Source: Oscillospiraceae bacterium (lineage in GTDB: Bacteria > Bacillota > Clostridia > Oscillospirales > Ruminococcaceae). From it: a stretch of DNA of 28,907 nucleotides. The notes under the pieces are model-generated. The model saw only the letters and a program-made list of their open reading frames with translations, did not search any database and was not told the origin of the DNA. A program made the position numbers and the translations under genes. Of this stretch, positions 1-23,854 are shown piece after piece; positions within the stretch are counted from its first letter, which is position 1, and each line of letters begins with the position of its first letter. The stretch lies in the NCBI GenBank assembly GCA_018110855.1, contig JAGBFZ010000373.1, positions 1 through 28,907 of the forward strand, given 5' to 3'.

Positions 1-2732
1 GCACGCTTTGCGATATATGCGGCATAATTTCCGTAGCATACCAGCATATCAATGCCCTTTTCGGCGGCGTATTCGCCTACCCGCTCGTGAAGCTCGGGTG
101 ACATGGCTCCAAGCTCAAGCATATCGCCGAGAACTGCCACTCTTTTTCCGCCAGAAGCGGGCTTTATGTCGCAGAGGACGTCAATAGCAGCCATCATGGA
201 ATCGGGAGCGGCATTGTAGCAGTCGATAATAAGGGTCTGACCCTTTCTTTCCTCTATGTGCTGCCTTAAACCGTCAAGGCGGAAGCCTTCAAGCTTTTTG
301 CATACGGCATGACCCTCGCAGCCTGCCTTTACTGCCGCTGCATATGCTATAAGCGAGTCTATGACATGATGTGCTCCGGGGCAGGGAAGGCATATCTCAT
401 CCAGCTTCTGTCCGTCCTTTATTATATCAAAGCGGACGGAGCTGTTATCTGTAACGATATTCTCTGCAGTATAGGTGCAGCCTTTGTTCTTAACGCCGCA
501 GGTGATGACCTCTCTGTCGGTTATCTTTTCGGTAAGAGGATATAGAAGCCTGTCGTCACCGTTGATAATAAGAGGCGCGCTCGGCTCTGCTCCCGAAAGT
601 ATCTCAAGCTTTGCCTTGAGTATGCCTTCCTGAGAGCCTAAATTCTCCGCATGAGACCAGCCGATATTGGTTATAACTGCAATGGTGGGCTGACAGGTCT
701 TTGAAAGCCTTTCGATCTCCCCGAAATGGGACATTCCCATTTCAATAACAGCCGCCTTGTGATTGGGCGAGAGCTGAAGAAGGGTAAAGGGCATACCAAT
801 CTCATTATTGTGATTCCCCTCGGTCTTGAGAGTGTTGTATTTTGAGGAAAGGGCAAGGGCGATCATTTCCTTGGTGGTAGTTTTGCCCACGCTGCCTGTT
901 ACGCCTACCAGCTTGGGGGTGAATTTTCTTCTGTAATGAGCGGCGAGCTGAAGTATTGCCTTGCGGGTGCTTTCCACCACGATACAAGGCTCATCGCCCA
1001 CAGGATACTCGGTTATGGCGGCAGCAGCACCCTTTACCACTGCGTCATGGACGAAATTATGCCCGTCAAAGCGGTCTCCCTTGAAGGCAATGAATATGCT
1101 TCCGGGAATTATTGTTCTTGTGTCGCTGCTTATCTGCTCGGCGTTTATAAACCTTGAGCTTGAGGGAATGTGATATTTCTTTCCTCCCACAGCGGTGCAT
1201 ATCTCGTCAATGCTCATACCGCTGCAAAGGGAGGTGCTTTCCTCGATCTTGGGCTTAACAAGGCTTGCAAGAGCCTCGGCGCATATCTCACGCTCGTCAA
1301 AATGGATATGAACATTGTCCTTGAGTACCTGATAATCTTCATGCCCCTTGCCTGCGAGGACGATAACGTCACCCTTTTCGGCTATCTTCACCGCATGGAA
1401 TATTGCGCTGCGGCGGTCTGTTATCCGCTCATAGGGGGTGTTTGAGCCGTCAAGCCCTGTGATTATCTCGTCAATAATGGCGTCAGGCTCCTCATTTCGG
1501 GGATTATCCGAGGTGATGATAAGATAATCGGCAAATTTTGCTGCTGCCTTTGCCATAAGGGGACGCTTTGTTCTGTCTCTGTCGCCGCCGCAGCCGAAGA
1601 GACAGATAAGCCGTCCCTCGGTATTTGCCTTTATTGCAGGCAGCATATTTTCCAGCGCGTCGGGAGAATGGGCATAGTCGCAGACAATGTAGAAATTACG
1701 TCCTGTGGGGATATTCTCGCATCTTCCTCTTACGCCGTTGAAGGAATTGACCGCTTCGGTAATAGTACCGATGGGAACGTTCAGCTTTGAGCATACAGCT
1801 ATTGCGGCAGTTGCATTTGCCACATTGTAGCTGCCCATCATTTTAAGGCTGAAGGGAAAGCTCTTGCCGGGTATGCAGAACCAGAAATGAGCTGCGCCGC
1901 CGCTGTATTTTATATGGCTTGCGTAAACCGATGTGCCGCCCTGAATGCCGTAGGAGTATTTTGAGCAGGGAGTTTCCTTATAAAGCCTTGCGCCATATTC
2001 GTCCTCGGTGTTGATAATGGCGATCTTGCAGTGGTCGGTGAACAGCTTTTTCTTGGCATTGTAATAATTTTCCATAGTGCCGTGGTAATCGAGATGATCT
2101 TCCGTTAAATTGGTGAACACTCCGCAGGTGTACACCGCAGGACCTATCCTGTTCTGCTCGAGAGCAAAGGAGGATACCTCCATAACGCAGTATTTGCAGC
2201 CCTTATCTGCCATTGTGCGGAATATCTCATAAAGCTCAAATACCTTGGGGGTGGTGGGGGTGGAATCGTCTCTCTCGAGAGGCTCTTTTCCGCAGAGAGT
2301 TCCCGCGGTGCCTATAAGTCCTGCCTTTCCCCCCGCACAGGTTATGATGTGGTGTATCATGGTCGCCATGGTGGTTTTGCCGTTGGTGCCTGTGATGCCC
2401 ACAAGGATAAGCTCCTTTTCGGGGTGATCGAACCACTCGGCAACCAAAAGACCATAGAATTTCCTTGTATCGGCAACGATTATCTGCCTGTCCTTTAAGC
2501 CCAGATCCCTGTCGCATACGACTGCCGCAGCGCCCTTTGAGAGCATATCAGCCGCTGCTGTGTGACCGTCAAATTTATTTCCCTTGACGCAGACAAAGAT
2601 ATTTCCCTCGCTCACATTTCTTGTGTCATCGGTAATGCCTGTGATAAGGCAGTCCCTGCCCTTGTATTTGTAAGAGGCGGTCTGTCCCGCACCGTTCAGA
2701 AGATTTGAAAGCTGCCTGCTGTTCTTGCCCAT
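1..2732 (-). CDS. murE-murF: Bifunctional MurE-MurF fusion (UDP-MurNAc-tripeptide synthetase / D-Ala-D-Ala adding ligase), 3' end cut by window
   Basis: Two successive cytoplasmic Mur ligases of peptidoglycan precursor synthesis are encoded in one frame. I read every codon from the ATG at 2732 to the left edge (910 codons) and found no stop. Residues about 1-490 are MurE: the ATP loop TGTNGKTT is at about 114-121, and DNPR at 409-412 is the signature for meso-diaminopimelate addition. A short linker follows, then MurF from about residue 506 (MSIDEIC), with its own ATP loop TGSVGKTTTKE near 606-616 and the N-terminal substrate-domain motif SSDTRT. About 405 residues of MurF are present, so roughly 50 are missing at the edge. 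The internal Met506 lacks a well-spaced ribosome binding site, so separate MurF translation looks unlikely. An AAGGA site precedes the start, which lies 25 nt after the PBP stop codon. Fused MurE-MurF is known in Bordetella; here the fusion is read directly. Confidence 0.93.
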   Translation of the reverse strand, partial: MGKNSRQLSNLLNGAGQTASYKYKGRDCLITGITDDTRNVSEGNIFVCVKGNKFDGHTAAADMLSKGAAAVVCDRDLGLKDRQIIVADTRKFYGLLVAEWFDHPEKELILVGITGTNGKTTMATMIHHIITCAGGKAGLIGTAGTLCGKEPLERDDSTPTTPKVFELYEIFRTMADKGCKYCVMEVSSFALEQNRIGPAVYTCGVFTNLTEDHLDYHGTMENYYNAKKKLFTDHCKIAIINTEDEYGARLYKETPCSKYSYGIQGGTSVYASHIKYSGGAAHFWFCIPGKSFPFSLKMMGSYNVANATAAIAVCSKLNVPIGTITEAVNSFNGVRGRCENIPTGRNFYIVCDYAHSPDALENMLPAIKANTEGRLICLFGCGGDRDRTKRPLMAKAAAKFADYLIITSDNPRNEEPDAIIDEIITGLDGSNTPYERITDRRSAIFHAVKIAEKGDVIVLAGKGHEDYQVLKDNVHIHFDEREICAEALASLVKPKIEESTSLCSGMSIDEICTAVGGKKYHIPSSSRFINAEQISSDTRTIIPGSIFIAFKGDRFDGHNFVHDAVVKGAAAAITEYPVGDEPCIVVESTRKAILQLAAHYRRKFTPKLVGVTGSVGKTTTKEMIALALSSKYNTLKTEGNHNNEIGMPFTLLQLSPNHKAAVIEMGMSHFGEIERLSKTCQPTIAVITNIGWSHAENLGSQEGILKAKLEILSGAEPSAPLIINGDDRLLYPLTEKITDREVITCGVKNKGCTYTAENIVTDNSSVRFDIIKDGQKLDEICLPCPGAHHVIDSLIAYAAAVKAGCEGHAVCKKLEGFRLDGLRQHIEERKGQTLIIDCYNAAPDSMMAAIDVLCDIKPASGGKRVAVLGDMLELGAMSPELHERVGEYAAEKGIDMLVCYGNYAAYIAKR

Positions 2733-2757: not shown

Positions 2758-5073
2758 TTATCCCTCGTTCTTGACTCGGAAGGATACCTCTACCACTGTT
2801 CCCACAGGAACTATGGTGCCTTCAAGGTAATTCTGCTGATATGCAACGGCTCCTGCGTGTTCTGTTGCGCCGTCGCCTGCTTTGAAGTTAATATTGACCG
2901 ATGTGAGCAGTTCATTCACCTCTGAAACGGTATGCCCCAGAACGTTCGGAACGGTGGTATATTCCGTTTCGTAATTCTCCTCGGTGTAAAGCACTACCTT
3001 GCCGTTTCTCGGAACAGAGGAGGAGCGTGAGGGAACCTGAGATACCACCGTATCTCCCTCGCCTACCACATAATAGCGAAGCTCCAGATTCTCAAGAGTG
3101 GTCTTTGCAGCCTCCACCGACTGCCCCTCAACGCTGGGAACGGTAACGTCAAGAGCTGCAAGCTCTGCTTCGGTATATTCGGGATAATAGCCCAGATAGG
3201 GAAGTGCGTCCTTGAAAACCGCAGAAATAACGGGAGCGGCTACAAGGCTGCCGTAATAGATCTGAGCGCCGTTGTGATCCTTGCCCTGAGGCTCGTCTAC
3301 CATGCAGAGCATGATTATCTCAGGGTCGTCTGCGGGAGCGAAGCCGCAGTATGAGCCTACATAAAGGTTATCGACTCCCAGCTCAAGGTTTTTCTTCTGC
3401 TTCTGAGAGGTTCCCGATTTGCCGCCGATACGGTAGCCCTTTATGTATGCGTTTGAACCGCCGTTGTTGTTTACAACGCTTTCGAGGACCTGTCTCATCT
3501 GAGCGGAGGTCTCCTCGGATATTACCTGACGGCGGACGGTTCTTTCCTTGGTCTCGATGATATTGCCGTTGCTGTCAACAATTTTGCTTACAACATGAGG
3601 CTGGAGCAGATAGCCGCCGTTTACTACTGCGGCATATGCTGTTATCATCTGAATTGGTGTAACAGTGTTTGACTGACCGAAGGAGCAGGAGGCAAGCTCT
3701 ACTATGCCCATGTTCTCCTCAGCAACATACAGACCTGCGGATTCTCCGGGCAGATCTATTCCCGTAGGCTCGGTGAAGCCGTATGCCTTGAAATACTGAC
3801 AGAAATTTTCTATTCCCAGCCGCTGTCCTATCTGAATGAAGGCGGGGTTGCAGGAATTTGTCATTGCGGTGGTGAAATCCTGCGTGCCATGGTCGCCTCT
3901 TGTCCAGCAGTGGATAGGCCAGTCTGCGACCTGCATTACGCCGTTGCAGGTAAAGGTGGAGTTAAGGTCGATGACCTTCTCTTCAAGAGCAGAGGAGCCT
4001 GTGACTACCTTGAATACGGAGCCCGGCTCATACAGCTCGGTGATCGCTTTATTTTTCCACTGCTTTTCTCTCAGCTCCGCATATTTTTCGTTATAAGCCT
4101 CCTCGTCCTCGGTCTCCTCCTTCAATGCGGCGAGAACGGCTCTGTCCTTGGGAGCGTATATCTCACCCTTGTCGTTGAGGTCGAAACCTGGGGAGGTAGC
4201 CATTGCCAGTATCTCTCCCGTTTTTGCGTTCATCATTATTGCGCAGGCGCGGTTATCCACATTATTCTGCTCAACGCACTTTGCAAGCTCTCTTTCGCAG
4301 TAATACTGAAGTGTGGAGTCGATAGTGAGATAAATGGAATTTCCATCCTTTGCGGCATATATCTTGTCATTCTTGTAGGGCATTTCGTTGCCCTGAGCGT
4401 CATTGGCGGAGATGATCTTGCCGTCAACGCCTGCAAGGTAATCATTGTAATAGGCTTCTACGCCGTAAATGCCGTCTCCCTCGTAATTGGTGAAGCCGAT
4501 AACTGCGGCAGCCATATCTCCTTGGGGATAATAACGCTTTGTGTCCTCCTCGGTGTCAAGGAGATTTGTGGGGAGTCCCATTTCGCCCGCACGGGTGAAT
4601 ATATTGGTGACAACCGATTTTTCCACCTTTGAGGAAACCTTTTTATACTGCTTGTCTTTGGTTTTGGGATCGGTGAAAACGTCTGCTATTTCGCTGTATT
4701 CCACGTTTAATTCCTCGCTGAGGATAGTGGAAACGTCCTTTATCATCTTCTCCTTATCCTCGGGCGAATACTTTTCCTCGTTGAGACCTGTGATGGCAAG
4801 AGGATTTACGATAATGTTATAGACCGTTGCGGACTGAGCAAGAATTTTTCCGCTTGAATCGAATATGCTTCCCCGATGGGCTTCAACAGTGGTGCTTCTG
4901 AACTGGCTGTCGTTTGCCATAGCTGCGAAGCGGTCATGCTGTGTGACTGAGGTGTTGAATAGCTTGACAAATATAACTGCCGAGCCTGCAAGAATGAGCC
5001 AGGTGGCAATATTCAGCCCTCGCTTCATTGATTTTGTGGGCTGATAGTGTGAGGCATTTTTGTTTGACGGCAA
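2758..5073 (-). CDS. ftsI: Class B penicillin-binding protein with two PASTA domains (FtsI/PbpB/SpoVD type)
   Basis: Membrane-anchored D,D-transpeptidase that cross-links septal peptidoglycan. The protein has a short cytoplasmic tail, one membrane segment at about residues 17-38, a PBP dimerisation domain, and a transpeptidase domain with SVFK at 352-355, SCN at 407-409 and KSG at 552-554. Two PASTA repeats follow (about 625-760). I chose the TTG at 5073 because AAGGAGGG lies exactly 8 nt upstream. The in-frame ATG at 5151 would add 26 residues of non-family sequence, has no good ribosome binding site and sits inside a hairpin. The product is 771 residues. Two PASTA repeats and its place after ftsL favour the vegetative division enzyme (PbpB/FtsI) over the sporulation paralogue SpoVD, but with only one such gene here the distinction is inference. 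Confidence 0.93.
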   Translation of the reverse strand: MPSNKNASHYQPTKSMKRGLNIATWLILAGSAVIFVKLFNTSVTQHDRFAAMANDSQFRSTTVEAHRGSIFDSSGKILAQSATVYNIIVNPLAITGLNEEKYSPEDKEKMIKDVSTILSEELNVEYSEIADVFTDPKTKDKQYKKVSSKVEKSVVTNIFTRAGEMGLPTNLLDTEEDTKRYYPQGDMAAAVIGFTNYEGDGIYGVEAYYNDYLAGVDGKIISANDAQGNEMPYKNDKIYAAKDGNSIYLTIDSTLQYYCERELAKCVEQNNVDNRACAIMMNAKTGEILAMATSPGFDLNDKGEIYAPKDRAVLAALKEETEDEEAYNEKYAELREKQWKNKAITELYEPGSVFKVVTGSSALEEKVIDLNSTFTCNGVMQVADWPIHCWTRGDHGTQDFTTAMTNSCNPAFIQIGQRLGIENFCQYFKAYGFTEPTGIDLPGESAGLYVAEENMGIVELASCSFGQSNTVTPIQMITAYAAVVNGGYLLQPHVVSKIVDSNGNIIETKERTVRRQVISEETSAQMRQVLESVVNNNGGSNAYIKGYRIGGKSGTSQKQKKNLELGVDNLYVGSYCGFAPADDPEIIMLCMVDEPQGKDHNGAQIYYGSLVAAPVISAVFKDALPYLGYYPEYTEAELAALDVTVPSVEGQSVEAAKTTLENLELRYYVVGEGDTVVSQVPSRSSSVPRNGKVVLYTEENYETEYTTVPNVLGHTVSEVNELLTSVNINFKAGDGATEHAGAVAYQQNYLEGTIVPVGTVVEVSFRVKNEG

Positions 5074-5124
5074 ATCCTTACCCTCCTTATTATGGACATG
5101 GACTGATTCCCATAAGTGCAAGAA

Positions 5125-5154
5125 CGCATGAGCCGTTGTTTGAGCGGTCATGCG
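5125..5154 (-). other. Intercistronic hairpin between ftsL and the PBP gene
   Basis: Arms CGCATGA plus CCG pair with CGG plus TCATGCG, with one bulged base and a 9-nt loop. No T-run follows, so it is not a standard terminator. It lies in a 106-nt spacer between the ftsL stop codon and the TTG start of the PBP gene, long for this tightly packed cluster, and it buries an alternative ATG. A role in mRNA processing or in tuning PBP translation is inference. Confidence 0.45.
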
Positions 5155-5179: not shown

Positions 5180-5659
5180 TTAACCCTTGAGGTATTCCAC
5201 CAGGTTGTCAAAAGTGTTCTTGATTTTTTGGAGAACGCCTGCTTTCTGCTCGGGTATCTCCACCTTGTTTCCGCTTTCGAGGCTTATGTACTCCACCTGA
5301 GCGTTATCGAGCTTCTGCATTCCCAGTACGTTTTCGGCATAATCCTCAACTACCTTCTGAGAGCTTTTCTGCTCAAGCCTTGTAGCCATGCTCACGTTTT
5401 CCTGTCTGAGAACGCTGACGTTTGTCTCCTCCTGAACTACAGCTGCGTGGATAGCTGCAATATTCGCCTTGGAGGTAACGCAGAAGGTAAGCATTACTCC
5501 TGCAACGATTATAAGAAGTACAAGAGAGGGAGTTGCAACAGCAGGTTTGGGCTTTGCGGCGCTGCGGGACTTTATATTCTCCTGACGGCGGCTTGCCCGC
5601 TCCTCATAATTTTCATATCTTGAAAGGTCATAAGCAAGATTAGAGTTTCTGTCTGCCAT
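5180..5659 (-). CDS. ftsL: FtsL-like division protein
   Basis: Small bitopic membrane protein of the divisome, expected to act with DivIC/FtsB and the septal PBP. The 159-residue product has a basic cytoplasmic N-terminus (about 1-45), one transmembrane segment (about residues 46-63, rich in L, V and I), and an extracytoplasmic stretch with heptad-like leucine/valine spacing typical of a coiled coil. FtsL proteins are poorly conserved in sequence, so the call rests on topology and on position between rsmH and the PBP gene, where ftsL lies in most Firmicute dcw clusters. The long N-terminal tail is usual for Gram-positive versions. Confidence 0.8.
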   Translation of the reverse strand: MADRNSNLAYDLSRYENYEERASRRQENIKSRSAAKPKPAVATPSLVLLIIVAGVMLTFCVTSKANIAAIHAAVVQEETNVSVLRQENVSMATRLEQKSSQKVVEDYAENVLGMQKLDNAQVEYISLESGNKVEIPEQKAGVLQKIKNTFDNLVEYLKG

Positions 5660-5687: not shown

Positions 5688-6617
5688 TTACAGCTTTTCG
5701 ATTATCCTGAGCTTTGCGCTCCTGCTTCGGGGATTGGCTTCAAGCTCCTCCTCGGAGGCTTCAATGGGCTTCCTGCTAACAAGCCTTGCCTTTGGCTTGT
5801 TCCCGCAGACGCATACGGGGAAATCGGGGGGGCAGGTGCAGCCCTTGCACCATCCTGCGAAGCGCTGCTTCACGATCCTGTCCTCAAGGGAATGGAAGGT
5901 GATAACGCAGAATCGTCCGCCCGTTTTTAATATCTCAAAGCCCTCGTCGAGAGCCTTGTCCAAGTGCTCAAATTCGCAGTTGACTGCGATCCTTATTGCC
6001 TGAAAGGTCTTTTTGCAGGGGTTTTTCTCCCGTCTGAACTTAGCGGGAACGCCCTCTCTCACTATATCTGCAAGCTCGCCTGTGGTCTCGATGGGCTTTT
6101 CTCCTCTGCGCTTTATTATTGCGTCAGCGATACGGGGAGCGAATTTCTCCTCGCCGTATTCGTAAAGGATCTTCACAAGCTGCTCTCTTGAATAATCATT
6201 CACGATATCCCTTGCGGAAATGCCCTCCTTTGACATTCTCATGTCGAGAGGAGCGTCTGCGTGATAGGAGAAGCCTCTTTCTGCGGTATCAAGCTGATAG
6301 GAGGAAACGCCTAAATCAAGAAGAATACCGTCCGCCTTGTCAATTCCAAGCTCTGCGGCAGCTGCCTTCATATCCGAGTAATTTCCTCTTATTACCTTAG
6401 CGTTCAGTCCCTTGAGCCTTTCCGAAGCGGTGATAACGGCGTCGGGGTCTCGGTCGATGCCTATGAGCAGCCCCGAGCTGAGCCGCTTTGCTATCTCACG
6501 GGAATGCCCCGCTCCTCCGCAGGTTCCGTCGATGTATGTCCCATCGGGCTTGATGTCAAGACCCTCAAGGCATTCGTTCAGCATAACGGGTATATGATTA
6601 AATTCCATATTCTGCAA
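5688..6617 (-). CDS. rsmH: 16S rRNA (cytosine-1402 N4)-methyltransferase RsmH (MraW)
   Basis: S-adenosylmethionine-dependent enzyme that methylates N4 of C1402 in the decoding centre of 16S rRNA. The 309-residue length is standard. The N-terminal HIPVMLNE block, the SAM-binding loop GTCGGAGHS, the LDLGVSSYQLD motif and the C-terminal ITFHSLEDRIVK block are all present. The first possible start is TTG at 6617, 5 nt after an AAAGGA site. The ATG at 6608 (third codon after it) fits the usual family N-terminus (MEFNHIP) but is 14 nt from that site, so the start is uncertain by three codons. It lies between mraZ and ftsL, the classic dcw order. Confidence 0.96.
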   Translation of the reverse strand: MQNMEFNHIPVMLNECLEGLDIKPDGTYIDGTCGGAGHSREIAKRLSSGLLIGIDRDPDAVITASERLKGLNAKVIRGNYSDMKAAAAELGIDKADGILLDLGVSSYQLDTAERGFSYHADAPLDMRMSKEGISARDIVNDYSREQLVKILYEYGEEKFAPRIADAIIKRRGEKPIETTGELADIVREGVPAKFRREKNPCKKTFQAIRIAVNCEFEHLDKALDEGFEILKTGGRFCVITFHSLEDRIVKQRFAGWCKGCTCPPDFPVCVCGNKPKARLVSRKPIEASEEELEANPRSRSAKLRIIEKL

Positions 6618-6632
6618 ATGTTTCCTTTATAA

Positions 6633-7061
6633 TCAGAATGCAAGGGAGTCGATTGCCGCCGAAAGCTCCTCATCGGAGAACTTAGCGTTGTTCTCCTCAT
6701 AGCGGGCGGTGTCCCATATCTCGGCACGGTTTAAGTTGCCGATAACGGTGATGTCGTGGTCGAGAGCGGCATGATCTCTGAGATTCTGGGGGATAAGAAT
6801 TCTTCCCTGCTTGTCGGTCTCTGCGATAATGGCGTTTGCGGCGTATTTTCTTATTGCTGCCTTTGCCACGGGACCCGAAAGAGTTCTGAGCTGCTCTGTG
6901 AATTTCTCCCATTCCTCGCTTGAATAAACGTAAAGGCAGCCCTCAAGACCGATGGTGATGACGAAATTCACGCCGAGCTGCTCTCTGAGCTTGCCGGGGA
7001 ATGCCATTCTGCCCTTGGCGTCCATGGTATGGTTGTAGGTTCCCATAAGCGGAGCGTGCAT
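6633..7061 (-). CDS. mraZ: Transcriptional regulator MraZ
   Basis: AbrB/SpoVT-fold DNA-binding protein that controls the dcw operon from its first position. It has the two family half-repeats, each with the DxxxR signature: DAKGR near the N-terminus and DKQGR in the middle. The 142-residue length is normal. I prefer the ATG at 7061, which is 9 nt from AAAGGA. The ATG two codons upstream (7067) is only 3 nt from it. The upstream DNA carries GTGGTGA boxes directly after the predicted -10 element, matching the known MraZ operator type (tandem GTG-containing repeats at 10-bp spacing), so autoregulation is expected. Conserved family similarity begins at MGTYNHT, a few residues into the reading frame. 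Confidence 0.95.
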   Translation of the reverse strand: MHAPLMGTYNHTMDAKGRMAFPGKLREQLGVNFVITIGLEGCLYVYSSEEWEKFTEQLRTLSGPVAKAAIRKYAANAIIAETDKQGRILIPQNLRDHAALDHDITVIGNLNRAEIWDTARYEENNAKFSDEELSAAIDSLAF

Positions 7062-7110
7062 TGTCATCAGTCCTTTCGTTTATATTTTCGGGCGGGGGAT
7101 TCAACACGTC

Positions 7111-8552: not shown

Positions 8553-8573
8553 TAAAGACTGTTGCGGTCTTTA
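8553..8573 (-). other. Hairpin between accA and acpP
   Basis: Arms TAAAGAC / GTCTTTA form a perfect 7-bp stem with a 7-nt loop. The stem starts at the accA stop codon and ends about 20 nt before the acpP ribosome binding site. The following T-run is poor, so processing or partial attenuation is likelier than full termination. Confidence 0.45.
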
Positions 8574-9458
8574 CTTAGTAGGTTCATCGGCAGTCTGCGG
8601 CTGAACGGATGCCTGTTCACGGAACACGCCGATTTTTCTAAATTTATTATACCGTTCATTAAGCAAAACGTCAATATCTTTTTTCATTTTGTTATTCAGC
8701 GATTTTACCAAAAAATCAGCAATATTTTCGGCAGTCGTTTCGGGATCGTTATGAGCGCCTCCCTCAGGCTCGGATATTATCGCCTCTGCAATGCCCAAAT
8801 TAACGGCATCCTGAGCGGTAACACGCATAATATTGCAGGCTTCCTTTTCCTTTGAAGCGTCCTTCCACAAAATGGAAGCAAAGCCTCTGGGGGATATTAC
8901 CGAATAGATGGAGTTTTCAAGCATGGCAAGCTCGTCGCACACGCCAAGCGCCAATGCGCCGCCGCTGCCGCCTTCACCAAGCACCACCGATACAACAGGG
9001 GTCTTTAAGGTCATGAATTCCGCTAAATTCCGTGCGATCGCCTCTCCCTGTCCTCTTTTTTCCGCAGCCACTCCGCAGAATGCGCCGGGGGTATCTATAA
9101 AGCAGATAACGGGGCGGTGGAATTTCTCCGCCTGACGGGCAAGACGCAGTGCCTTGCGGTAGCCCTCGGGGTGGGGCATGGCGAAGTTTGAAGCCTTGTT
9201 TTCAAAGACATCTCTGCCCTTGACCTCGGCAATAACTGTAACGGGAAGCTTGCCCAGCCTGCCTATGCCGCCGAGAATCGCTCCGTCGTCTCCGAAAAGG
9301 CGGTCGCCGTGAAGCTCGAAGAAGTCGTTGAAAATAAGGGGGAGATAGTCCCTGATGGTGGGGCGGTTCTTGTTTCTGATTATCTCAAGCCGTTCAAAGG
9401 GGGTAAGCTCGCCGCTTGCGGCTGTATCCTCGTTTTCCTTTATGATCTCTTCAGACAA
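8571..9458 (-). CDS. accA: Acetyl-CoA carboxylase carboxyltransferase subunit alpha
   Basis: Alpha half of the carboxyltransferase that moves CO2 from biotin on AccB to acetyl-CoA, giving malonyl-CoA. The crotonase-fold core is clear: RPTIRDYLPLIF near the N-terminus, GDRLFGDD, the FIDTPGAFCG block, GEGGSGGALAL in the oxyanion region and SVISPRGFASILWKD. The 295-residue length is slightly short of E. coli AccA (319) but complete. The start is TTG at 9458, 9 nt after a GGAGG site. The frame overlaps the end of accD by 8 bp, implying translational coupling of the two carboxyltransferase subunits, which work as an alpha2-beta2 complex. Confidence 0.96.
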   Translation of the reverse strand: MSEEIIKENEDTAASGELTPFERLEIIRNKNRPTIRDYLPLIFNDFFELHGDRLFGDDGAILGGIGRLGKLPVTVIAEVKGRDVFENKASNFAMPHPEGYRKALRLARQAEKFHRPVICFIDTPGAFCGVAAEKRGQGEAIARNLAEFMTLKTPVVSVVLGEGGSGGALALGVCDELAMLENSIYSVISPRGFASILWKDASKEKEACNIMRVTAQDAVNLGIAEAIISEPEGGAHNDPETTAENIADFLVKSLNNKMKKDIDVLLNERYNKFRKIGVFREQASVQPQTADEPTK

Positions 9459-10320
9459 TGATATCCACCTCCCTGAACGGCTTATGGAGACGGATAAGGT
9501 GGGCTATGGTCCTGCGGAGATTCTTTCTCTCCACGATCATATCCGCAAATCCGTTTTCAAGCGTAAATTCCGCAGACTGGAAATCCTCGGGGAGCCTTTG
9601 CTTTATGGTTCCTTCGATAACACGTCTGCCTGCAAAGCCAACAAGCACCTTCGGTTCTGCGATAATAATATCTCCCAGCGAGGCAAAGGACGCTGTAACG
9701 CCGCCTGTGATGGGGTCTGTGAGGACGGTGATGTAAAGCCCGCCTGCCTGTGAAAGCCTTGCAGCTGCGCCGCTGGTCTTTGCCATCTGCATAAGGGACA
9801 CAAGCCCCTCCTGCATACGGGCGCCTCCCGAGGCGGTAAACAGTACCAAGGGGAGCTTTTTCTGAGCGGCGGCTTCAAAGGCTCTTGTTACCTTTTCGCC
9901 TACCACGCTGCCCATGGAAGCCATCATAAAATGAGAATCCATAATGCCGATAATGCAGCGCTCGCCCTTTATGGTACATTCACCTGTTATAATAGCGTCA
10001 TTAAGCCCTGTTTTCTTCCGCAGTCCTTCGATCTTTTCCTCATAATCGGGGAAATCTATGGGATTAAGGCTTGTCATGTCCTTGTCGTATTCGATAAAGC
10101 TGTCCTTATCCACGGTTATGGAAAGGCGTTCTGCGGCACTTATCCTGCTGTGATAGCCGCATGAGGGGCATACCCATTTATTATCCTCAAGCTCGTCCTG
10201 AGTGCAGCTTTCGGAGCAGCGGGGGCATTTGAACTGCTTCTCCGGGGGAACGTCGGGGGCTTTCTCGCCGTCGTCCAGATTAAAGCGGGCGGTGACGACC
10301 TTGAACAAATCCTCTAACAA
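9451..10320 (-). CDS. accD: Acetyl-CoA carboxylase carboxyltransferase subunit beta
   Basis: Beta half of the carboxyltransferase. The N-terminal zinc ribbon is intact (CPRC about 20 residues before CPSCGYHSR), followed by the crotonase-fold domain with FTASGGARMQEG and ITGGVTASFASLGD. The product is 289 residues, normal for the family. The start is TTG at 10320, giving the family-like N-terminus MLEDLF; the GAGG-type ribosome site is only moderate. It lies 27 nt after accC and overlaps accA by 8 bp, consistent with matched subunit production. Confidence 0.96.
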   Translation of the reverse strand: MLEDLFKVVTARFNLDDGEKAPDVPPEKQFKCPRCSESCTQDELEDNKWVCPSCGYHSRISAAERLSITVDKDSFIEYDKDMTSLNPIDFPDYEEKIEGLRKKTGLNDAIITGECTIKGERCIIGIMDSHFMMASMGSVVGEKVTRAFEAAAQKKLPLVLFTASGGARMQEGLVSLMQMAKTSGAAARLSQAGGLYITVLTDPITGGVTASFASLGDIIIAEPKVLVGFAGRRVIEGTIKQRLPEDFQSAEFTLENGFADMIVERKNLRRTIAHLIRLHKPFREVDIIV

Positions 10321-10347
10321 TCTTTTCGCCTCAATTCGTTAAAATTT

Positions 10348-11697
10348 TTATCCGTTTTCCGACAGCTTTCTTCCCAGATATCCGATATCGTAGGTTCCCT
10401 GCTCGAAAACGCTGTCTCTGATAAGGGCGAGCTGGAAATCAATATTGGTATCCACTCCCTCAACGATAAATTCCGCCAGCGCCCATTTCATCTTGGCAAT
10501 TGCCTCGGGACGGGTGGGGGCGTGGACAATGAGCTTGGCGATCATGCTGTCATAGAAGGGGGGGATAGTGTAGCCCTGATATACGGAGCTGTCCACTCTG
10601 ATACCCGGACCTCCCGGAATGTGGAGAGCGGTTATCTGCCCGGGGCTCGGACGGAAATTGAAGTCGGGATTCTCTGCATTTATACGGCATTCGATGGAGT
10701 GACCTGTCATGGAGATGTCCTTCTGTGTAAAGGGCAGCTCTTCGCCGTAAGCTATCTTTATCTGGTGCTTTACAAGGTCGATGCCCGTTACGGCTTCGGT
10801 GATGGGGTGCTCAACTTGTATTCTTGTATTCATCTCCATGAAGTAGAAACGTCTGCTGGAGTCCACAAGAAATTCGATGGTGCCTGCGTTTGTATAGCCG
10901 CAGACTCTTGCGGCAGTAACGGCAGCACGTCCCATTTTTTCACGAAGCTCCTTGCTCATAATGGGAGAGGGGGTCTCCTCTAAAACCTTCTGATTTCTCC
11001 TTTGCATGGAGCAGTCTCTTTCGCCCAGATATACGGTATTTCCGAATTTATCGGCGAGTATCTGCACCTCGATATGCTTGGGATTTACGATAAATTTCTC
11101 CATGTAGACGCTGTCGTCCCCGAAGAAATTCTTCGCCTCCTGCTTTGCGGCGATGATGGCGTCCTCAAGCTCCTCGGGACGTTCCACGAGACGTATGCCT
11201 CGTCCGCCGCCGCCTGCCGATGCCTTTACCATAAGGGGACAGCCGATCTCATTGCAGAGCCGCTTCGCTGTCTCCATATCAGGAACGGCGCCGTCGGAAC
11301 CGGGTATAACGGGAACTCCCGCAGCCTTCATGGCTTTCTTTGCCGCAGCCTTATCTCCGAGCATACTGATGGACTTAGGCTTGGGACCTATGAAAACGAT
11401 ATTATTTTCCTCGCACAGACGGGCGAAATCAGCATTCTCGGAGAGAAAGCCGAAGCCCGGGTGAACAGCCTCCGCACCTGTCATTTTGCAGGCTTCAATA
11501 ATAGCGGCAGCGTTTAAGTAGCTGTCCTTTGTTGCAGGGGGACCTATGCATATGGCTTCATCAGCGATCTGCGCATGGAGAGCGTGCTTGTCGGCGGTGG
11601 AATAAACGGTGACGGTGTGTATTCCCAGCTCACGGCAAGCTCTTATAATTCTTACCGCAATTTCTCCTCGGTTAGCAATAAGTACCTTTTTAAACAT
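10348..11697 (-). CDS. accC: Acetyl-CoA carboxylase, biotin carboxylase subunit
   Basis: ATP-grasp enzyme that carboxylates biotin on AccB using bicarbonate and ATP. All three domains are visible: the N-terminal fold (KVLIANRGEIAVRIIRA), the ATP-grasp glycine loop KASAGGGGRGIR, and the catalytic block EMNTRIQVEHPITE, followed by the C-terminal domain with PYDSMIAK-like PFYDSMIAK. At 449 residues it matches E. coli AccC length. It lies between fabZ and accD in the single minus-strand run, 21 nt from fabZ. Confidence 0.97.
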   Translation of the reverse strand: MFKKVLIANRGEIAVRIIRACRELGIHTVTVYSTADKHALHAQIADEAICIGPPATKDSYLNAAAIIEACKMTGAEAVHPGFGFLSENADFARLCEENNIVFIGPKPKSISMLGDKAAAKKAMKAAGVPVIPGSDGAVPDMETAKRLCNEIGCPLMVKASAGGGGRGIRLVERPEELEDAIIAAKQEAKNFFGDDSVYMEKFIVNPKHIEVQILADKFGNTVYLGERDCSMQRRNQKVLEETPSPIMSKELREKMGRAAVTAARVCGYTNAGTIEFLVDSSRRFYFMEMNTRIQVEHPITEAVTGIDLVKHQIKIAYGEELPFTQKDISMTGHSIECRINAENPDFNFRPSPGQITALHIPGGPGIRVDSSVYQGYTIPPFYDSMIAKLIVHAPTRPEAIAKMKWALAEFIVEGVDTNIDFQLALIRDSVFEQGTYDIGYLGRKLSENG

Positions 11698-11718
11698 TTT
11701 TACTCAGAGCCTTTCAGG

Positions 11719-12144
11719 TTACTTGATAGCGAAGGTTATCTCGGCGGATACTGCCTTTTCTCCGTTAACGGTGCAGATACCCTTGCCGTAGCCAACGGGA
11801 CCTCTTACCTTGATGATCTCCACCTCGATGCGAAGTCTGTCCCCGGGAACAACCTGTCTGCGGAATTTAGCTTCCTTGATGCCGCCGAAAAAGCCTATCT
11901 TGCCCTTGTTTTCGGGAAGAGTGAGCATGGCTGTGCAGCCTGCCTGAGCCATCATCTCTACCATGAGAACGCCCGGCACTACTGGATAATCGGGGAAATG
12001 TCCCTTGAACCAGAATTCCTCGGGAGTCATTGTTTTATACGCAACCACACGCTTTCCCGGCTCTAATTCCTCGATTTCGTCAATGAGAAGGAAAGGGTCA
12101 CGGTGGGGGATTATTTCCATTATCTGCTCTTTATTCATTAACAT
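11719..12144 (-). CDS. fabZ: 3-hydroxyacyl-ACP dehydratase FabZ
   Basis: Hot-dog-fold enzyme that removes water from 3-hydroxyacyl-ACP to give trans-2-enoyl-ACP. The substrate-channel block IPHRDPFLLID is at 12-22. Catalytic His49 lies in KGHFPDYPVVPG, with catalytic Glu63 in LMVEMMAQAG. The product has 141 residues, as expected. AAGGAGGT lies 6 nt before the ATG. The gene follows accB by 12 nt. No separate FabA, FabM or FabN isomerase gene is seen here, so the source of unsaturated acids is not shown by the window. Confidence 0.97.
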   Translation of the reverse strand: MLMNKEQIMEIIPHRDPFLLIDEIEELEPGKRVVAYKTMTPEEFWFKGHFPDYPVVPGVLMVEMMAQAGCTAMLTLPENKGKIGFFGGIKEAKFRRQVVPGDRLRIEVEIIKVRGPVGYGKGICTVNGEKAVSAEITFAIK

Positions 12145-12156
12145 GGGTAGACCTCC

Positions 12157-12636
12157 TTAACCGATTATCATTACGGGCTGATCGAATTCCACAGCGTCGC
12201 CGTTCTTTACAAGCAGCTTCTTAACTGTTCCGTCAACGGGGCAGGGAATTTCATTCATAATCTTCATGGACTCGATTATCATTATGATATCGCCCTTTTT
12301 CACCTTCTGACCCACCTGTACGAAGGGGGGCTTGTCGGGTGCGGGGGAGGAATAATATGTGCCTACAATGGGTGATCTCACCGTTTCGCCCTCGGGAAGG
12401 GAAGCAGGCTTGCTCTCGGGAGAAGCTGCAGGTGAAGCGGGTGCCCCTGCTGCCATGGGAGCGGCAAATGCTCCTGCCTGCATGGGAGGAGGGGGAGGAA
12501 CAGGACGGCTTTTAATAACCAGCTTTGCGCCGATATCGTCGTCCTCAAGGCATATCTCGCCTAAGTTTTTTTCATTTATCAGGTCCGCAAGAGCGGCAAT
12601 GTCCTCTATTTCAAGGTCAAAAGGAAGTGTGCCCAT
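12157..12636 (-). CDS. accB: Biotin carboxyl carrier protein of acetyl-CoA carboxylase
   Basis: Carries the biotin arm between AccC and AccA/AccD. The N-terminal helix region (about 1-45) is followed by a Pro/Ala-rich flexible linker (about 47-85) and a biotinyl domain. The biotin-accepting lysine is Lys125 in ESMKIMNE, so the residue after Lys-Ile differs from the E. coli AMKM form but resembles the MKLMNE form of Firmicutes. The 159-residue length is normal. A GAAAGGA ribosome site lies upstream of the ATG, 25 nt after fabF. Confidence 0.96.
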   Translation of the reverse strand: MGTLPFDLEIEDIAALADLINEKNLGEICLEDDDIGAKLVIKSRPVPPPPPMQAGAFAAPMAAGAPASPAASPESKPASLPEGETVRSPIVGTYYSSPAPDKPPFVQVGQKVKKGDIIMIIESMKIMNEIPCPVDGTVKKLLVKNGDAVEFDQPVMIIG

Positions 12637-12661
12637 TTTTATTCAGTCCTTTCGGGTTTGC

Positions 12662-13897
12662 TTATTCGGCGTATTTCTTGAAGCACAGAGTGGCGTTATG
12701 ACCGCCGAAGCCTAAATTATTGGTGAGAGCAGCATTTACGGTCATGCTTCTGTTGCCATCGGTGCAGTTGTCAAGGTCGCACTCGGGGTCGGGAACCTTG
12801 AAGCCCACGGTCTTGTGAACAAAGTCCTCCTTGCAGGAAAGGGCTGTTACAATGGCTTCAACTGCGCCTGCTGCACCTAAAAGATGACCTGTCATGGACT
12901 TGGTGGAGTTTACAACTACCTTCTTTGCAGCCTCGCCCAGAGCCAGCTTTATTGCTGTTGTCTCGCACATATCGTTAAGGTGTGTGGAGGTGCCGTGAGC
13001 GTTGATATAATCAATATCCTCGGGGGCAAGTCCTGCTTCCTCATATGCCATTCTGATTGCTGCTGCAGCGGCTTCGCCTGCGGGGTCGGGGGAGGTCATG
13101 TGGAATGCGTCTCCCGTTGCGCCGTAGCCTGCGATCTCGGCATATATCTTTGCTCCTCTTGCCTTGGCGTGCTCCATTTCCTCAAGAATGAGCATACCAC
13201 TGCCCTCGCCTAAGATGAAGCCGTTTCTCTCGGCATCGAATGGGATAGAGCATCTTTCAAGGTCTGTGGAGCGGGAAAGGGCTTCCATATTGTTAAAGCC
13301 TGCAAGTGCAAACTCGTTTACGCAAGCCTCTGCTCCGCCTGCAATGCACACGTCAAGATAGCCGTCCTTTATGCGTCTGAAGGCTTCTCCGATAGCATGG
13401 GTGGAGGAAGCGCAGGCAGTGGTGGTGCAGTAGTTTGCTCCCTTGAAATGGGTTTTCATGGAGATGGTTCCTGCCGCCATGTTTGCGATCATTGCGGGAA
13501 TGTAGAATACCGACACTCTGCCGGGACCCTTCTGCTGATATTTCTCGTATTCCTGCATGGTAAGGTCAAGTCCGCCTATTCCTACGCCTGCGATAACGCC
13601 TGCTCTGTAAGGGTCGATATCCTCAAACTTTGTGCCTGCGTCTTCCATTGCTTCAAGGGCTGCATAAACCGCAAACTGAGTGAAGCGATCCAGCCTTTTT
13701 GCGTCCTTCTTGTCAATGTGCTTTTCGGGGTCAAATTCCTTTACGGGTGCGCCTATCCTTACCTCAAAGTCCTCGCTTACAATATCGTCAAGGAAGCTGA
13801 AGCCCAGCTTGTTTGCCTTGATATTGCTCCAGAATTCATCAAGAGAGTTTCCTAAGGGGGAAACCACGCCCATTCCTGTTACTGCGACTCTTCTCAT
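12662..13897 (-). CDS. fabF: 3-oxoacyl-ACP synthase II FabF
   Basis: Condensing enzyme that extends acyl-ACP by two carbons using malonyl-ACP. It has the Cys-His-His triad of KAS I/II enzymes: Cys162 in TACASSTHAIG, the first His in INAHGTSTHLND and the second in STKSMTGHLLGAAGA. The C-terminal NNLGFGGHNATL block is present. At 411 residues it matches E. coli FabF. AAAGGA lies 8 nt before the ATG. It follows fabG in the operon. Confidence 0.97.
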   Translation of the reverse strand: MRRVAVTGMGVVSPLGNSLDEFWSNIKANKLGFSFLDDIVSEDFEVRIGAPVKEFDPEKHIDKKDAKRLDRFTQFAVYAALEAMEDAGTKFEDIDPYRAGVIAGVGIGGLDLTMQEYEKYQQKGPGRVSVFYIPAMIANMAAGTISMKTHFKGANYCTTTACASSTHAIGEAFRRIKDGYLDVCIAGGAEACVNEFALAGFNNMEALSRSTDLERCSIPFDAERNGFILGEGSGMLILEEMEHAKARGAKIYAEIAGYGATGDAFHMTSPDPAGEAAAAAIRMAYEEAGLAPEDIDYINAHGTSTHLNDMCETTAIKLALGEAAKKVVVNSTKSMTGHLLGAAGAVEAIVTALSCKEDFVHKTVGFKVPDPECDLDNCTDGNRSMTVNAALTNNLGFGGHNATLCFKKYAE

Positions 13898-13947
13898 ATA
13901 TCCGATCCTTTCGTGATTACAATTTGAATATCCGTTTTATGCGGAGC

Positions 13948-14685
13948 TTACATTGAGATACCGCCTGAAATTTCGATCACCTGTCCCGTTACATAGGAGG
14001 AATCCTCCGATGCAAGGAAGGATACCACGCCTGCGATCTCCTCAGGCTCGCCGTAACGCTTCATTGCGATCTGTGCAAGCATTGCAGCCTTCTGCTCCTC
14101 GGTGAGCTTGTCGGTCATGGGTGTGTGGATAAAGCCTGGTGCTACTGCGTTGCAGGTGACATTTCTTGAGCCGAGCTCCTTTGCAACGGTCTTTGTCATA
14201 CCGATGATAGCTGCCTTGGAGGCGCTGTAGTTTATCTGTCCGGGGTTGCCGTAAAGACCTGCCACGGAAGCAAGATTGATGATATGTCCGCTTCTCTGGC
14301 GCATCATAATATTGCCCACGAACTTAGTCATGTTGAAAACGCTCTTCTGATTTACGGCAATTACCATGTCGTACTGCTCCTCGGGCATTCTTGCCATAAG
14401 ACCGTCTCTTGTGATGCCTGCGTTGTTTACGAGAACGTCAATGGTGCCGAAACGCTCCTTTACTGCCTTTACCATTGCCTCACATTCAGCATACTTTGAA
14501 ACGTCTGCGCAGAAAACTTCCGCTTCAACGCCCAGAGCCTTTACTCTGTCAACGATATCGTTGTTCTCGAACATTGTCATATTGAGGTCGTTGAATGCGA
14601 TGTTCATGCCGTCCTTGGCAAGTCTCAGTGCAATTGCTGCGCCGATGCCTCTTGACGAGCCTGTGATTATAGCTGTTTTTGCCAT
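13948..14685 (-). CDS. fabG: 3-oxoacyl-ACP reductase FabG
   Basis: NADPH-dependent short-chain dehydrogenase that reduces 3-oxoacyl-ACP. The nucleotide-binding TGSSRGIG is at 9-16, NNAG at 87-90, and the catalytic Ser140, Tyr153 and Lys157 are in place. The product has 245 residues. I set the start at ATG 14685: it gives the canonical MAKTAIITG N-terminus and lies 9 nt after GGAGG. The frame is open for 21 more codons upstream, but that stretch overlaps a near-consensus promoter. Transcription can therefore begin between fabK and fabG as well as at fabH. Confidence 0.96.
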   Translation of the reverse strand: MAKTAIITGSSRGIGAAIALRLAKDGMNIAFNDLNMTMFENNDIVDRVKALGVEAEVFCADVSKYAECEAMVKAVKERFGTIDVLVNNAGITRDGLMARMPEEQYDMVIAVNQKSVFNMTKFVGNIMMRQRSGHIINLASVAGLYGNPGQINYSASKAAIIGMTKTVAKELGSRNVTCNAVAPGFIHTPMTDKLTEEQKAAMLAQIAMKRYGEPEEIAGVVSFLASEDSSYVTGQVIEISGGISM

Positions 14686-14719
14686 TTGTTCATTCCTCCG
14701 TATATGAGTTTTCGTATAT

Positions 14720-14748
14720 AGTATATTGACGGAAAATCTGTCTGTCAA
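14720..14748 (-). promoter_or_regulatory. Predicted internal promoter at the fabK/fabG junction
   Basis: On the minus strand TTGACA (14748-14743) and TATACT (14725-14720) are separated by exactly 17 bp. The -35 element abuts the fabK stop codon. The -10 overlaps ATATAGTAT (14716-14724), a 9-mer also present at the fabD promoter and before aroE. Confidence 0.72.
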
Positions 14749-15678
14749 TCAGAAATCTGTTCCGAGCAGCTTGCCTGCCTGCTCCGAAAGCTCTGCCATT
14801 ATATCCTTGACGGGCTTTACCTCGTTTATCATACCGGCGATAAGTCCGCAGAGCATGGAGCCTTCGTCTGTGTTGCCGTCAACAACAGCCTTTCTGAGAG
14901 AGCCGACGGTGAGAGCCTCGAAATCCTCCGGGGGAGCTGCCATTTTTTCCATTTCCTGAAGCTTCTTTGTGTATTTGCTCTTTATGCAGCGGCAGGGGCT
15001 TCCCGAATAAAAGCCTGTGATGGCATTATCGGTGTCCTTTGCCTTGATGACTGCATTCTTGTAATTTTCGTGTATCTGACATTCCTCGGAAGCAAGGAAA
15101 CGGGTTCCGATTTGAACGCCCTCTGCGCCAAGCATGAAGCTTGCTGCGATTCCTCTGCCGTCGGCAATACCGCCCGCTGCGATAACGGGAACGCTTACAG
15201 CGTCGACCACCTGAGGAACAAGGCACATGGTGGTGTTCTGACCGATGTGTCCGCCAGATTCGGTTCCTTCTGCGATAACGGCGTCTGCGCCTATCTTTTC
15301 AAGTCTCTTTGCAAGGGCAACGGAGGGAACAACGGGAATGACCTTAATGCCCGCTTCCTTCCATGCGGCAATGTACTGACCGGGATTTCCTGCGCCTGTG
15401 GTAACGAAGGAAACGCCCTCCTCGATAACCAGCTTTGCAAGCTCCTCCGCATTGGGAGACATGAGCATGATATTCACACCGAAGGGCTTGTCGGTAAGCT
15501 CCTTGCACTTTCTTATCTCGCTTCTGAGATAGTCAATGGGAGCGGAGCCGCCTGCGATAATGCCTGCGCCGCCTGCGTTCGATACTGCGGAGGCAAGAGT
15601 GCTTTCTGCTATCCATGCCATACCGCCCTGAATAATGGGTTTTTCGATTCCGAGAAGCTCGGTTACTCTGTTTTTCAT
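14749..15678 (-). CDS. fabK: Enoyl-ACP reductase II (FabK, FMN-dependent)
   Basis: Flavoenzyme that does the last reduction of each elongation cycle, replacing FabI. It is a TIM-barrel protein of the nitronate monooxygenase family with PIIQGGMAWIAE at the N-terminus, the catalytic His motif SGGHIGQNTTM, and the phosphate-binding GGIADGRGIAASFMLGA. The 309-residue length is typical of FabK. The fab context favours FabK over a nitronate monooxygenase. FabK enzymes are generally insensitive to triclosan (family knowledge). AAAGGA lies 9 nt before the ATG. Confidence 0.93.
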   Translation of the reverse strand: MKNRVTELLGIEKPIIQGGMAWIAESTLASAVSNAGGAGIIAGGSAPIDYLRSEIRKCKELTDKPFGVNIMLMSPNAEELAKLVIEEGVSFVTTGAGNPGQYIAAWKEAGIKVIPVVPSVALAKRLEKIGADAVIAEGTESGGHIGQNTTMCLVPQVVDAVSVPVIAAGGIADGRGIAASFMLGAEGVQIGTRFLASEECQIHENYKNAVIKAKDTDNAITGFYSGSPCRCIKSKYTKKLQEMEKMAAPPEDFEALTVGSLRKAVVDGNTDEGSMLCGLIAGMINEVKPVKDIMAELSEQAGKLLGTDF

Positions 15679-15701
15679 AAATGCGTTTCCTTTCGTGATT
15701 A

Positions 15702-15848
15702 TTATTTCTTGTTCTTAAAATGCCGTATCAGCAGAACTGCGGCGGTAATGACTGCTATTATGAGAATTACGGGAAGCAATAATCCTGCCGGGCTTATAGG
15801 CGGTATTGCTATAACGTCTGCAAATCGGGTAAAATTTAATCCGTTCAT
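15702..15848 (-). CDS. Small single-pass membrane protein, 48 residues, between fabH and fabK
   Basis: A short frame runs from ATG at 15848 to TAA at 15702. Only 3 nt separate it from the fabH stop codon, and it ends 23 nt before the fabK start, in the spacing of a real operon gene. The protein has a polar N-terminus (about 1-17), a long hydrophobic segment (about 20-41, rich in L, I, V and A) and a short basic tail ending FKNKK. This is the topology of a small bitopic membrane protein. No strong ribosome site is visible, so translation would depend on coupling to fabH. I recognise no family; a role at the membrane in lipid synthesis is inferred only from position. Confidence 0.6.
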   Translation of the reverse strand: MNGLNFTRFADVIAIPPISPAGLLLPVILIIAVITAAVLLIRHFKNKK

Positions 15849-15851
15849 GGC

Positions 15852-16850
15852 TTAATACTCGATTATAGCAGCACCCAAGGTAAGTCCTGCGCCGAAGCCT
15901 ACGAGACATACCTTCATGCCTCTCTTCAAAACGCCCTTTTCGGCAGCTTCGTTAAGCGCAATGGGAATGGAGGCGCTTGATGTATTGCCGTGCATATCTA
16001 TGTTGGTATAGAATTTATCCATGGAAACCCCAAGGTTCTTTGCGGCAGTCTCGATAATTCTTATATTTGCCTGATGGGGAATGAAAAGGTCGATGTCATT
16101 TATATCAAGACCAATCTTTTCGGCAGCGTTCTTTGCGGCAGTGGGGAGAGCCTTGGTGGCGAATTTATATACCTCCTTGCCGTCCTGAACGAGAAAACGG
16201 TGCTTTACTTCGGGGTCGGTCTGGTCATCTATGGTGAAATGCTCCTCGGTGGTAAAGGGGCTGTGAGCGTATTCATTCTTTGCATAAAGATACTTTGCGC
16301 CCGTGCCGTCTGCGCCCAGCCAGCTTGTGTAGAGCTTGTCCGATCTTTCAAGTATCACCGCAGCTGCGCCGTCTCCGAAAAGCACGCAGGAGGAGCGGTC
16401 GGTGAAATTCGTTATATACGAAAGGTTTTCATTGGCGGAGATAAGGACATATTTAAGGCTTTCGTCCGTTGCAAGGAAGCGGCAGGCGGTATCTACCGCA
16501 TACACAAAGCCGGAGCAGGCAGCGCCGAGGTCAAAAGCCGCTGCATTCACTGCGCCTGTTTCACGCTGGATAAGGCAGGAAGCGGAGGGGGTAACAAAAT
16601 CATTGGTGATGGTGGAGGAAATGATAAGACCTATTTCCTTGGGGTCGATACCCGCTCTCTCTATCGCCTGCTTTGATGCCATTGCGCCCATGTACCATGT
16701 AGGCTCGCAGTTTGACATACGACGTTCGGAAATGCCCGTGCGGGTCCTTATCCATTCGTCGTTTGTCTCCACAAGTCTTGACATATCATCATTGGTAACT
16801 GCAAGCAGGGGGGCATAGCCGCCTGTTGAAACAATATTTATTCCGCTCAT
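15852..16850 (-). CDS. fabH: 3-oxoacyl-ACP synthase III FabH
   Basis: Initiating condensing enzyme, joining an acyl-CoA primer to malonyl-ACP. Catalytic Cys112 is in GAACSGFVYAV, the His in FIPHQANIRII and the Asn in HGNTSSASIPIAL. From ATG 16850 the protein has 332 residues, matching the family, and starts MSGINIVSTGGYAP. The frame stays open up to 16976, but that would put the start codon at the predicted transcript start, so I reject the longer form. The nearest ribosome site (AAAGGA) is 15 nt from the ATG, which is long. It is the first gene of the minus-strand fab run. Confidence 0.95.
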   Translation of the reverse strand: MSGINIVSTGGYAPLLAVTNDDMSRLVETNDEWIRTRTGISERRMSNCEPTWYMGAMASKQAIERAGIDPKEIGLIISSTITNDFVTPSASCLIQRETGAVNAAAFDLGAACSGFVYAVDTACRFLATDESLKYVLISANENLSYITNFTDRSSCVLFGDGAAAVILERSDKLYTSWLGADGTGAKYLYAKNEYAHSPFTTEEHFTIDDQTDPEVKHRFLVQDGKEVYKFATKALPTAAKNAAEKIGLDINDIDLFIPHQANIRIIETAAKNLGVSMDKFYTNIDMHGNTSSASIPIALNEAAEKGVLKRGMKVCLVGFGAGLTLGAAIIEY

Positions 16851-16882
16851 TTTGTAAATAATCAATCCTTTCGGGTCTTTTG

Positions 16883-16895
16883 ACGGATTTTCCGT
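16883..16895 (-). other. Small hairpin in the fabH leader
   Basis: ACGGA and TCCGT flank a 3-nt loop shortly before the fabH ribosome site, inside a predicted leader of about 125 nt. It is short and could be chance. Confidence 0.25.
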
Positions 16896-16981
16896 TCGTT
16901 TACTATTGTAATTTACGAAAAAATGTGTTATTATAATTAGTGTGGCAAAAATGCATTTCCACATAATACAATACATTATAT

Positions 16982-17130: not shown

Positions 17131-17173
17131 AATACTTATTGTAATACACTTAATAATTTCGGAGGATTTGAAG

Positions 17174-23785: not shown

Positions 23786-23854
23786 ATAGCTCTCGGTGAA
23801 ATATGATTGAAAAATATAGGAAGTCCCTATTCTATACGAAAGGTGGTCTATCTT

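Follow-up and report, generated by a model that had tools for sequence, protein, structure and literature searches.

A likely inherited fusion of murE and murF in one Oscillospiraceae-type family of Bacillota

Introduction

The stretch of DNA analysed here (the window, 28,907 nucleotides) comes from an Oscillospiraceae bacterium (GenBank assembly GCA_018110855.1, contig JAGBFZ010000373.1). At its left edge the genes of two consecutive Mur ligases, MurE and MurF, appear to be joined in one reading frame. Is this a genuine gene fusion, how did it arise, and what does its product do? The data below point very strongly to a genuine, vertically inherited fusion that would yield one bifunctional protein with tethered halves and that arose, most simply, once.

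The fused frame

On the minus strand, positions 3-2732 form a single stop-free frame of 910 codons, which opens with an ATG at 2732 and runs into the contig end. The frame is truncated because the window is an entire contig (G000:C83). The MurE part comprises residues 1-490 (1263..2732, minus strand) and is followed by a linker some 15 residues long (491-505; 1218..1262, minus strand). The MurF part (3..1217, minus strand) starts at residue 506 and continues to residue 910 at the contig end. A full-length copy, protein P0002, is encoded on a contig of 13,239 bases. It is 100% identical to the window protein across all 910 residues and has 961 amino acids, and therefore the last 51 residues of MurF are missing from the window. 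The order MurE first, MurF second in one uninterrupted frame is thus seen at full length in P0002.

All three Mur ligase domains of Pfam are present twice in the frame. The MurE part aligns to solved MurE chains and exceeds the cut-off of the NCBIfam murE family TIGR01085 (591.8 bits, cut-off 257). The MurF part, complete in P0002, aligns to solved MurF chains and exceeds that of the murF family TIGR01143 (523.7 bits, cut-off 289). The MurE part also scores above the cut-offs of two diaminopimelate-ligase equivalogs, NF001126 (663 bits, cut-off 373) and NF001124 (571 bits, cut-off 476). Together with the tetrapeptide DNPR at residues 409-412 (1497..1508, minus strand), which we take to be the meso-diaminopimelate signature of MurE, these scores assign the MurE part to the meso-diaminopimelate-adding enzymes. 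DNPR is also found in solved diaminopimelate-adding MurE chains.

Conservation of motifs was considered in 45 aligned fused proteins, hand-picked from the best 120 of 8000 matches. In this set DNPR is invariant (45 of 45), and the MurE ATP loop GITGTNGKTT (residues 112-121; 2370..2399, minus strand) is invariant or nearly so. Positions T612, G613, S614, K617 and T618 of the MurF ATP loop TGSVGKTT (residues 612-619; 876..899, minus strand) are the same in all 45 proteins. The ATP loops and ligase motifs are intact in both halves, as judged from these proteins and from the alignments to solved chains. The original prediction, made from the sequence of the window, had proposed a true MurE-MurF fusion with no stop across the boundary. 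It placed both ATP loops, DNPR and a linker of that length in one frame; the loops read GTNGKTT and TGSVGKTT. The translation from the ATG at 2732 and the scores of both halves, above their NCBIfam cut-offs, confirm all of this.

Neighbouring genes

Upstream of the fused frame, on the same strand, lie further genes of the dcw cluster. The nearest (2758..5151) encodes a penicillin-binding protein of the SpoVD/FtsI type with Transpeptidase, PBP_dimer and PASTA domains. It is followed by a frame for a small FtsL/DivIC-like protein (5180..5659; a weak DivIC match, below the cut-off), by rsmH (mraW; 5688..6617; PF01795, 391.5 bits) and by mraZ at the cluster start (6633..7067; PF02381, 116 bits).

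The near relative L018 (94% identical) contains the complete fused gene within a dcw cluster. Three ORFs there match the lengths of mraZ, rsmH and the ftsL-like gene of the window and were assigned by position and length. They are followed by a SpoVD-like penicillin-binding protein gene (nearest family TIGR02214, below its cut-off), murE-murF, mraY, an FtsW/SpoVE-like gene (which reaches neither cut-off), murG (just short of its cut-off) and murA. In positions 8557-14344 of L018, no murD-sized frame was found from mraY to the FtsW/SpoVE-like gene or to murA among ORFs of at least 130 amino acids.

A fatty-acid synthesis block adjoins the dcw cluster of the window (8571-16976, minus strand). 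It contains acetyl-CoA carboxylase subunits, biotin carboxylase, a biotin carrier, and FabZ-like, FabF-like, FabG-like, NMO/FabK-like and FabH-like genes. A FabD-like acyltransferase gene (17168-18094, plus strand) is divergent from this block. Further on, a frame of 993 residues (23807-26788, plus strand) has a solute-binding domain confined to residues 604-893, and its first 600 residues have no Pfam match at 1e-5. The same is true of three other sizeable frames on the plus strand, 20360-21277, 21675-23384 and 26809-27771. The window contains no Rfam match at gathering scores, and tblastn matches in a plasmid collection (174 records) are all below 60% identity.

Known MurE-MurF fusions

Among solved chains, the whole protein scores best with 8f5d, presumably that of Bordetella pertussis MurE-MurF. 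That a fused MurE-MurF is documented in Bordetella, as the original prediction stated, is correct. PMC6420597 describes the B. pertussis protein as one active bifunctional enzyme, 945 residues long, whose linker has about 20. The molecule is elongated and flexible, and its active sites are put at a distance of about 35 angstroms. The same text also names Pseudovibrio, Desulfobulbus and Desulfobacula.

In the Bordetella fusion and in that of the window alike, MurE precedes MurF in a single frame, and the linkers have about 20 and about 15 residues, respectively. However, they belong to different phyla, and the window protein scores 425 bits with 8f5d, whereas read-through separate pairs from its own family score approximately 600-1150 bits. 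Since the nearest outside relatives are unfused and score far above 8f5d, the fusion in the window is probably independent of that in Bordetella, a conclusion drawn from these comparisons.

The family of bifunctional MurE/MurF proteins NF008896 (PRK11929, PRK11929.1) is matched almost end to end: residues 30-956 of the 961 in P0002 align with profile positions 29-954 of 965. However, the scores of P0002 (874.4 bits), P0117 (877.8 bits) and P0030 (910.7 bits) fall short of the curated cut-off, which is 1023 bits. Thus the window adds a member to the known MurE-MurF architecture but lies outside the NF008896 equivalog.

The separate murE and murF genes of neighbouring Oscillospiraceae and Ruminococcus have the same order and the same domains and are the nearest sequences. 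They differ in having at least one stop codon between the genes and sometimes a frame shift. Several source records name the product as MurE ligase alone, and so annotators should be warned; one record (JGI) names both enzymes.

Predicted function and the role of the linker

The genome of the window contains five Mur_ligase_M matches. Two of them are within the fusion, and none of the other three matches the fusion protein strongly. No stand-alone murE or murF was found elsewhere in this genome, which is 95% complete, so that a second copy could have been missed. With the motifs intact in both halves and no strong second match, the fusion should carry out both steps, barring another copy in the missing 5% of the genome. 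The product would be one bifunctional protein of 961 residues. Its MurE part would add meso-diaminopimelate, and its MurF part would then add D-Ala-D-Ala, to the UDP-MurNAc peptide.

One possibility is that the fusion is kept because UDP-MurNAc-tripeptide is handed from the MurE site directly to the MurF site. Indeed, the two enzymes catalyse consecutive steps, the fusion is common to six genera, and channelling has been raised as an idea for Bordetella (PMC6420597). However, the linker is conserved neither in sequence nor in length. The mean share of the commonest residue in the 45 fused proteins is 0.25 in the linker, against 0.73 in MurE and 0.67 in MurF, the lowest conservation among the segments compared. 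The span from FDER in MurE to SDTR in MurF is anywhere between 45 and 60 residues long across the scored rows (25 of the 40 fused ones), and in some fused members MurE passes almost straight into MurF. Besides, the distance of about 35 angstroms between the active sites of the elongated, flexible Bordetella molecule, as given in the same text, argues against direct transfer. The suggestion of the original prediction that the fusion could channel the tripeptide is thus not borne out, and we consider this explanation of its retention unlikely. Similarly doubtful is the reading that in this Bacillota fusion, of independent origin and retained throughout a clade of six genera, the halves have become kinetically interdependent, through channelling or a fixed mutual orientation, so that neither works well alone.

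Since the linker is poorly conserved in sequence and variable in length, it fits the role of a tether, not of a conserved tunnel. It would hold two complete enzymes at a one-to-one ratio and prevent their separation within the cytoplasmic Mur complex.

Possible internal start

Another possibility is that one frame gives two products, a free MurF being formed by internal initiation or by cleavage at the linker. In the clade of the window there is an ATG near the start of MurF; in the window itself it is codon 506 (1215..1217, minus strand), close to the MurF start of separate relatives. Candidate starts were scored in fused and separate genes, with 15 of 40 fused and 17 of 41 separate rows missed by the motif patterns. 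Of the 25 fused genes scored, six show a Shine-Dalgarno-like match ahead of an in-frame start near the junction, and in four of these six fused rows the match occupies one place in the end of MurE. Two of the six are in the genus of the window, and none is among its six nearest genes. On the other hand, the internal ATG lacks a Shine-Dalgarno-like match in all six nearest fused genes, and the methionine at the junction is not kept across the fused genera. Among separate MurF genes, a match of at least four bases was seen at the best start in 19 of 24 scored; for these genes the highest-scoring of several candidate starts was used, a choice that makes a match likelier. An internal start for free MurF thus finds no support in the six genes nearest to the window, while some additional free MurF may be formed from certain fused genes elsewhere. 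As a general account of the fused frame, two products seem slightly less probable still than channelling, and a single tethered protein is preferred.

Distribution

In the family sample, 28 of 396 genomes contain a stop-free match spanning both halves, with E up to 1e-150, the weakest matches being unlisted and the match in G294 starting at residue 109. These genomes fall into six genera: g1 (7 genomes), g3 (6), g116 (6), g142 (2), g46 (2) and g146 (5). Two further g142 genomes are cut by contig ends and are ambiguous as to the fusion. In the class sample (391 genomes, E up to 1e-130) and the phylum sample (398 genomes, E up to 1e-120), the fusion was found in one genome each, namely that of the window. 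The family, class and phylum samples overlap, and very divergent fusions could miss these E limits. Thus the fusion, seen in six genera of the family sample, is rare on the wider scale, within the family too, and the original statement that it is not the usual Firmicute arrangement agrees with the single occurrence in the phylum sample. In many relatives murE and murF lie head to tail and share a frame; the read-through match is then mostly interrupted by one to three stops.

A paper by Shirakawa et al. 2023 (PNAS) reportedly treats the architecture of MurE-MurF and its arrangement in genomes. No fusion in Ruminococcus or Firmicutes was found among the titles and abstract openings listed, a search covering few subscription journals. 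The available part of PMC8657477 contains nothing about a MurE-MurF fusion.

Within the genus of the window the junction is stop-free in 19 of 20 genomes examined, the genome of the window included. The exception, G010, has a MurE fragment only; in G018 the first 101 residues sit on another contig. Of 79 named loci in public genomes, the 43 with both halves within 500 bases were kept and the other 36 left out. Among those kept, 15 are fused and 28 are separate. The fused ones are records of Oscillospiraceae and Ruminococcus assemblies. Huintestinicola, an Oscillospiraceae genus, is among the sources named for homologues at 62-85% identity. The organism behind the window is probably Huintestinicola-like and of the same family. 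The window does stop at a contig end of a genome fragmented into 455 contigs, but a stop codon deleted by an assembly or sequencing error is excluded for practical purposes, because the identical stop-free junction is shared by these 19 genomes and by 15 named loci from several sample sets, and the full-length copy P0002 lies on a contig of a different size.

Origin of the fusion

For the phylogenetic analysis 79 stretches were fetched and 87 loci were used, of which 81 entered the trees: 40 fused and 41 separate. In the separate relatives murF is in the frame of murE in 31 rows and in a different frame in 10; these rows were chosen among listed near relatives in a way that favours full-length, same-frame matches.

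The trees of MurE, of MurF and of both combined require two changes of state each. In the MurE-MurF trees the separate genus g135 falls inside the fused clade, and the fused rows together with g135 cluster to the exclusion of all others (SH-aLRT 100; 54 of 81 rows). However, an exclusive fused clade without g135 is not rejected by these data (AU p 0.34), nor on the RpoB tree (AU p 0.30; 24 rows, including an aberrant long one). A tree of four markers (RpoB, GyrB, IF-2 and ValS; 22 genomes, 3646 columns, with markers incomplete in some genomes and the genome of the window left out) requires one change of state. The branch in it that would unite all fused rows has support below 80, and three rows are long.

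Two departures from a single origin were considered. Firstly, the MurE-MurF trees hint that the fusion may have been re-split in g135, but the AU tests and the single change in the four-marker tree are compatible with no such event. Secondly, a separate fusion in g146 is not needed, since g146 groups with the other fused genera (SH-aLRT 100, four-marker support 99). One fusion event followed by vertical inheritance is the simplest and best supported account, the deepest branches being weakly supported. The genes murE and murF, neighbours in relatives, would have become one gene when the intervening stop was lost, in the simplest case a single time, in the common ancestor of six genera belonging to one Oscillospiraceae-type family. 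Translation as one protein, the two activities, a benefit by proximity and the single origin are all what we infer from sequence comparison.

In g44, no murF was found beside murE in five stretches (L155, L158, L161, L163, L164); there the pair may have come apart. The two g135 genomes (L127, L154) have separate murE and murF and branch within the fused clade or immediately next to it.

The results add a clade of gut Bacillota to the carriers of the MurE-MurF fusion, with closely related unfused genera alongside. The fused and unfused genera thus offer a natural comparison of what, if anything, is gained by fusing consecutive ligases.
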